DNA of 37,365 bases, taken from assembly GCA_005879535.1 (NCBI GenBank), contig VBKI01000095.1:1-37365 (forward strand), given 5' to 3'. The translations under genes were made by a program, and so were the position numbers. The DNA comes from Deltaproteobacteria bacterium. GTDB taxonomy: Bacteria; Myxococcota; Myxococcia; Myxococcales; 40CM-4-68-19. This document shows positions 9,631 through 10,639 of the stretch, piece by piece (position 1 is the first letter of the stretch; every line of letters starts with the position of its first letter). Under the pieces are notes generated by a model. The model had not been told where the DNA came from. It did no database searches and saw only the letters and a list, made by a program, of their open reading frames with translations.

Positions 9631-9996
9631 CTATTCGTGTGGCCGGACCTGCTTGCGGACCTTCTTGAGGAAAGTCCGGGTGCACCGGCCGTGCGTGCTC
9701 TCGTGGTTCATGATCTCGGCAAGCAGACGCGCCTTCGCGTCCTCGGTCAGCACCGTAGATGCGTTCACTTCGGAGGCGAGCTGGATGCCTTCGGGCGTGA
9801 CCGGAACCTTGGGCCCCTTGGGAGTCACCTCGGCGCGGTAATGTGAGGGCTTCGTCTTGGTGACGTCGTGGAACCGCGACGACGTATCGGCTCGCCGGCC
9901 AGAGCCATGACAGCTTGGACACGTTGCTGAGCTGCGGCCGAGCGCGTTGCCGATGCGCCCGTCCCCGCCGCAGAGGCGGCAGACTTCAGTCTCCAT
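9631..9996 (-). CDS. Small DnaJ-type zinc-finger protein
   Basis: A 121-residue product from an ATG at 9996. The N-terminus carries one pair of DnaJ-like C-x2-C-x-G-x-G repeats, 'CRLCGGDG' and 'CPSCHGSG', enough for one zinc ion; DnaJ itself has four. A charged middle and a C-terminal helical tail ('EDAKARLLAEIMNHESTHG', then a basic 'KKVRKQVRPHE') follow. There is no J domain, signal peptide or membrane segment. A chaperone-like, RNA-binding or redox role is possible, but none is demonstrated. The gene is convergent with the methyltransferase (8-base gap) and divergent from the selenoprotein gene. Confidence 0.7.
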   Translation of the reverse strand: METEVCRLCGGDGRIGNALGRSSATCPSCHGSGRRADTSSRFHDVTKTKPSHYRAEVTPKGPKVPVTPEGIQLASEVNASTVLTEDAKARLLAEIMNHESTHGRCTRTFLKKVRKQVRPHE

Positions 9997-10099
9997 GGGA
10001 AGCGTGTACCACCGATCGACTCCCTCGGCGTTGAGATAGTGAGCGTCCCTACTGCCTCGGGTTCCGCATGCTCATGTTCCGGCTGGCGATGGAGGAAAC

Positions 10100-10639
10100 A
10101 TGGAAATCAAGTGGCGGCACGACGTCGATCAGGTGCTGAAAGAGGCAAAAACCGAGCGCAAGCCTGTTCTGCTCGACTTCAGCGCCGCGCCGACGTGAGG
10201 GGGGTGCGCTCGGCTGGATGCCGAGGTCTACCCGGATGAGCGCGTCGCCCGCTTCATCACGGAACAGGACTTCAAGCGGTTCGGGGAGCGATATGGCGCA
10301 CAGTGGACGCCGACGATCCTGGAGCTGAACCCTGACGGAGTCGAACAACACCGCGTGGAGGGATTTCTCCAGACTGATGATTTCCTCGCCCAGCTGAAGC
10401 TCGGCCTCGGCAAGAGCGCCTTCAAGGCGAAGCAATGGCAGGACGCCGAGCGTCAGTTTCGCGAGATCGTCGATCGATTTGGGCAGTCCGACGCCGCGGC
10501 CGAGGCGCTCTACTGGGCAGGCGTCTCGCGCTACAAGGCGACGGGAGACGCGAGCGCCCTCAAGGAGACGGCGGCGGCCTTCGGCAGCAGGTATAGCAAC
10601 AGCACCTGGGCGAAGAAGGCATCGATCTGGAAAGGATGA
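10100..10639 (+). CDS. Thioredoxin-fold selenoprotein (U-x-x-C) with a C-terminal TPR-like domain
   Basis: The ATG at 10100 follows GGAGGA (10091-10096). The frame is open to a TGA at 10196-10198 and then stays open to the stop at 10637-10639: 180 codons, 179 residues if codon 33 is selenocysteine. The local sequence 'LLDFSAAPT-U-GGC' places U33 where thioredoxins have the attacking Cys, with C36 as the resolving Cys (UGGC). 'WTPTILELNPDG' supplies the cis-Pro (P71), and 'VEGFLQTDDFLAQLKLGLGK' resembles the end of a thioredoxin fold. Residues 97-179 look like a TPR-type helical repeat ('AERQFREIVDRFGQSDAAAEALYWAGVSRYK' style). U-x-x-C thioredoxin-like selenoproteins are known in Deltaproteobacteria. 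No signal peptide is present, so it is probably a cytosolic thiol reductase or peroxidase-like protein. The third beta strand seems missing. The alternative is a nonsense-mutated pseudogene. Confidence 0.85.
10199..10233 (+). promoter_or_regulatory. SECIS-like hairpin for UGA recoding
   Basis: Directly after the TGA, CTCGGC (10209-10214) pairs with GCCGAG (10220-10225) around a TGGAT loop. Below it GGGT (10202-10205) can pair with ACCC (10230-10233), with a small internal loop. The apical loop starts 16 bases after the TGA and has G at its second position. That agrees with the published rule for bacterial SECIS elements: a short stem, a loop 16-37 nt from the UGA, and a G among the first two loop bases. 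SelB would bind this RNA. Confidence 0.75.

Follow-up and report, generated by a model that had tools for sequence, protein, structure and literature searches.

We identify, in a soil bacterium, a stand-alone protein that is very probably a selenoprotein, encoded at 10100–10639 (+) of the window, the whole 37,365-nt stretch of DNA analyzed here. The predicted coding sequence specifies 179 aa, in which a Thioredoxin_2 domain with a UxxC active site is followed by a short tetratricopeptide repeat (TPR) domain. UGA codon 33 would be read as selenocysteine (Sec) through SelB, tRNA-Sec, and a downstream hairpin, giving a UxxC disulfide reductase with a client-binding TPR. Directly observed are a conserved UGA, the genes of the Sec machinery, a hairpin whose codons are synonymously frozen, and the order of the domains. 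The preliminary description of this DNA, which had proposed a probable selenoprotein from the in-frame TGA, gains support from the machinery, the conserved TGA, and the hairpin alike.

Reading frame and selenocysteine machinery

What does the frame itself reveal? It runs from an ATG through 31 codons to a TGA (10196–10198, +; codon 33) and then through 146 sense codons to a TGA stop, within one codon of the 32 and 147 counted earlier. A good ribosome binding site, GGAGG, lies just 5′ of the start (GGAGGAAAC-ATG; 10090–10099, +), as the preliminary description had noted, and most homologues have similar purine-rich upstream sites. The length of the open frame was dropped as evidence: the window is GC-rich and holds 183 open reading frames (ORFs) of at least 80 aa, so long chance ORFs are frequent and the case rests on homology. 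It is homology that exceeds chance, because the TGA coincides precisely with the leading Cys of a CxxC motif and is kept in all close full-length relatives. Codon 33, the first residue of UGGC, stands at the attacking-Cys place in SAAPT-U-GGC, as had been claimed, and forms an invariant column across the window and its Myxococcota and Acidobacteria homologues. The resolving Cys predicted three residues further on is Cys36 of UxxC (TGC, 10205–10207, +), likewise invariant in the homologue alignment.

Standard annotation was expected to lose the 5′ half of the gene, and translation table 11 indeed yields only a GTG ORF at 10355–10639 (94 aa). Taken at face value, that call would have translation end at the TGA, with a small TPR protein made independently from the GTG ORF. 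We consider this barely credible, since homologues are conserved continuously across the TGA, the U/C column aligns with the CxxC of Thioredoxin_2, and dN/dS between the window copy and its relative L056 is well under 1 on each side of the UGA (0.17 upstream and 0.31 downstream). Selection thus keeps the sequence on both sides, including the downstream conservation on which the selenoprotein proposal had depended.

We then asked whether the source genome (5.16 Mb, reported complete) has the means to decode UGA as Sec. It contains one tRNA-Sec (70 bits, above the Rfam cut-off), which ARAGORN calls as tRNA-SeC with anticodon TCA, together with SelA (500 bits), SelB (302.7 bits over its stretches), and SelD (355 bits), each above its cut-off. 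The check for selA, selB, selC, and selD that had been proposed thus finds all four components alongside the in-frame UGA. SelD itself carries an in-frame TGA, in the motif GSGUACK (L018:1501–2433), and is a predicted selenoprotein; because UxxK is the known Sec site of SelD (PMC13188914), this genome appears to make use of Sec decoding beyond the present gene.

A bSECIS-like hairpin follows the UGA. From the UGA onward the sequence reads GGGGGGUGCG-CUCGGC-UGGAU-GCCGAG, with a 6-bp stem (10209–10214 paired with 10220–10225, +) that begins 11 nt past the UGA and a 5-nt apical loop, UGGAU (10215–10219), with G at its second position. The UGA-to-loop distance is 16 nt, and the minimum free energy (MFE) is −19.1 kcal/mol for a 44-nt stretch. 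Published bSECIS rules call for a loop of 3–9 nt, a stem of 4–16 bp, G within the first two positions of the loop, a distance of 16–37 nt from the UGA, and an MFE at or below −7.5 (PMC13188914); the loop, stem, spacing, and MFE found here all lie within them. The MFE z-score is only modest (−1.7, or −1.45 against synonymous randomization), and codon freezing is therefore the stronger argument. Across 21 close homologues, the hairpin codons CGG (20/21), CTG (20/21), GCC (19/19), and GAG (20/20) rank as the top four of 76 testable columns for synonymous conservation; codons just outside the hairpin are variable. One close member, L085, has the shared hairpin broken and an alternative stem, CGGCTC/GAGTCG, at nearly the same place just past the UGA.

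Homologues in Myxococcota and Acidobacteria

How widely is the TGA shared? Two same-genus genomes carry it at the same codon: the protein L023/L056 is 65% identical to that of the window, and L024/L057 is 86% identical to L023 over its own intact part. A separate scan added the Acidobacteria proteins L058 and L059, also with TGA at the motif, which falls at residue 33 or 34 across these four relatives. A profile search of 396 Acidobacteriota genomes then gave 28 matches, the genome of L059 among them, and 24 of the 28 (24/396 genomes) have TGA at the UxxC motif. Of the other four, L093 (HCKGC) is a Cys form of full length, and L094–L096 are thioredoxin (Trx)-only CxxC proteins; the TGA counted in L096 lies at its end. 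SelA was found in all 24 TGA-carrying genomes and in 15 of 20 noncarriers (one-sided exact P ≈ 0.014, uncorrected for kinship), and no SelA match was found in the genome of L093. The UGA is therefore conserved or replaced by Cys, and the earlier expectation of U or Cys at residue 33 is borne out, with TGA in two phyla and Cys in a genome that gave no SelA match. More diverged Sec branches belong to the family as well (NPNUIGCKQMD and SPGULGCRRMD; L086, L087, and L089–L092); they have no CUCGGC hairpin, and another SECIS would be required there.

Because a TGA lies a single base from TGC or TGT, it could in principle be an ordinary nonsense mutation, or an error of sequencing, in a gene that encodes Cys. 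Yet the same TGA recurs across two phyla, in more than 25 genomes, with SelA present wherever tested, and the hairpin codons are synonymously frozen; conservation refutes this reading, to which we assign next to no credence.

Within Myxococcota, the profile search at 1e-20 recovered the family in only 3 of 195 genomes, all from this genus. Weak order-level Trx matches (E ~1e-13) were set aside as probably other Trx proteins, given that result. In a phylogenetic tree the myxobacterial copies group with the Acidobacteria copy L073 among Acidobacteria (support 86/82, short of firm). This placement and the presence in a single genus fit, but do not prove, a horizontal transfer into the myxobacterial lineage. 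No shared neighbour genes were seen by eye across L023, L058, L059, and the window. In the window, the neighbouring gene at 9631–9996 (−) encodes a protein of 121 aa that contains two CxxC pairs and gives weak, below-cut-off matches of a DnaJ zinc-finger-like kind.

An apparent deletion in the window's copy

The copy in the window differs from the other members of the family in a feature that the preliminary description did not mention. In alignments its frame is ~13 codons shorter than those of its relatives, with a gap after Q56 (junction 10267–10268, +) that affects the window copy only; the missing residues, which form the strand that follows the active-site helix, read FLPARIHVREQKA in L023. 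An AlphaFold model of the window copy has pLDDT of ~40–50 over residues 28–70 of the Trx domain, with the TPR near or above 90. In same-genus L024/L057, a deletion or frameshift lies in the TPR half, and the C terminus (DSIWAKKASVWKK) runs on in another frame; because this half is broken, the gene may be decaying in the genus.

Is the window gene, then, a recently decayed or misassembled copy, in which the TGA is a true Sec codon by descent and a 39-nt in-frame loss destroys the Trx fold? We regard this as a serious reading that falls just short of probable. The gap is unique to the window copy, model confidence collapses in its Trx domain while the TPR stays above 90, the sister copy is damaged as well, and four of the seven genomes of the genus gave no match to the gene (of these four, one is only 61% complete and three have SelA). 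However, the loss is in-frame; the UGA, hairpin, Cys36, and C terminus are otherwise intact; and the AlphaFold alignments were shallow, with four rows. Decay would concern the window copy only and is compatible with the selenoprotein explanation for the family. On the selenoprotein reading, the lost strand and the model together suggest that the window allele may be impaired, in decay, or a product of misassembly and is perhaps no working enzyme, but we are highly confident that its UGA was inherited as a Sec codon.

Domain architecture and relation to known systems

The Trx half of the protein is a Pfam match to Thioredoxin_2 (PF13098; gathering score 27), with 43 bits for the window copy and 53.8 for L023. 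The remainder is TPR (TPR_6, YbgF-like; 10400–10630, +), in keeping with the TPR-like downstream half described earlier. No signal peptide was obvious by eye, and the protein is cytosolic-looking. The AlphaFold model of L056 is of high confidence (pLDDT 89.6) and has a Trx fold like those of DsbH and DsbD-gamma with five helices at the C terminus; in Foldseek, some of this helical region matches the TPR of YbgF. We infer Sec insertion, the direction of the reductase reaction, and client binding from these features, and with them a disulfide reductase that relies on Sec, binds substrates through its TPR, and is perhaps chaperedoxin-like. SelB and tRNA-Sec would decode UGA codon 33 as Sec, directed by the downstream hairpin; the Sec33 selenol would attack a substrate disulfide; Cys36 would resolve the Sec33 intermediate, as in UxxC thioredoxins; and the attached TPR helices would most likely bind client proteins.

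How does this architecture compare with known systems? The folds closest to the Trx domain, and its Pfam matches, are the C-terminal (gamma) domain of DsbD, DsbH, and Thioredoxin_7, but the window protein has no membrane domain, carries a TPR extension, and has Sec in place of the first Cys. Local Trx-domain similarity and Sec are shared with the TsoB, VPGUxxT, and Trx7/PDZ selenoproteins of NCBIfam, with scores far under their cut-offs (47 vs. 805, 32 vs. 275, and 16 vs. 300 bits, respectively). The L056 model gave a weak Foldseek match to the Salmonella Trx protein 3qdn, which we take to be CnoX (TM 0.28 of target, rmsd 10.3 Å). In CnoX/YbbN chaperedoxins, which are cytosolic, a Trx domain precedes TPRs, and the protein from Caulobacter acts as a CxxC reductase (PMC6282202). 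The window family likewise has a Trx fold followed by TPR and looks cytosolic, whereas its TPR is shorter and YbgF-like and it uses Sec. The architecture recalls the CnoX chaperedoxins as a likeness; a member of that family would also have holdase activity and pass clients on to GroEL and DnaK. We think it unlikely, though worth stating, that these proteins form a Sec-dependent chaperedoxin family, reaching from Acidobacteria into a myxobacterial genus, whose UxxC Trx and client-binding TPR repair over-oxidized cytosolic proteins.

A “thiol:disulfide interchange protein” with PF13098 and UxxC, predicted to contain Sec, is already listed (PMC13188914). It has the Thioredoxin_2 domain with UxxC in common with the window family, which, judged against the table description, adds a C-terminal TPR. 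That table, from 2026, covers 119 families of prokaryotic selenoproteins; UxxC proteins with PF13098 are among them, but none is fused to a TPR, and the review text makes no mention of TPR or tetratricopeptide (PMC13188914). No NCBIfam model, selenoprotein families included, was matched above its curated cut-off. A full-text search of open-access papers returned none on a Sec Trx–TPR fusion, and the deep-Sep paper mentions none. The Trx–TPR selenoprotein looks like a new, uncatalogued family within a known kind of protein.

An apparently uncatalogued Sec-using Trx–TPR family is thus carried by ~6% of the Acidobacteriota genomes in our scan, with members that standard gene calling truncates. 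Its hairpin, nearly frozen across phyla, offers a compact marker for locating more of them. Because Sec is the rule in this family and Cys the exception, it is well suited to the question of why Sec has been retained.
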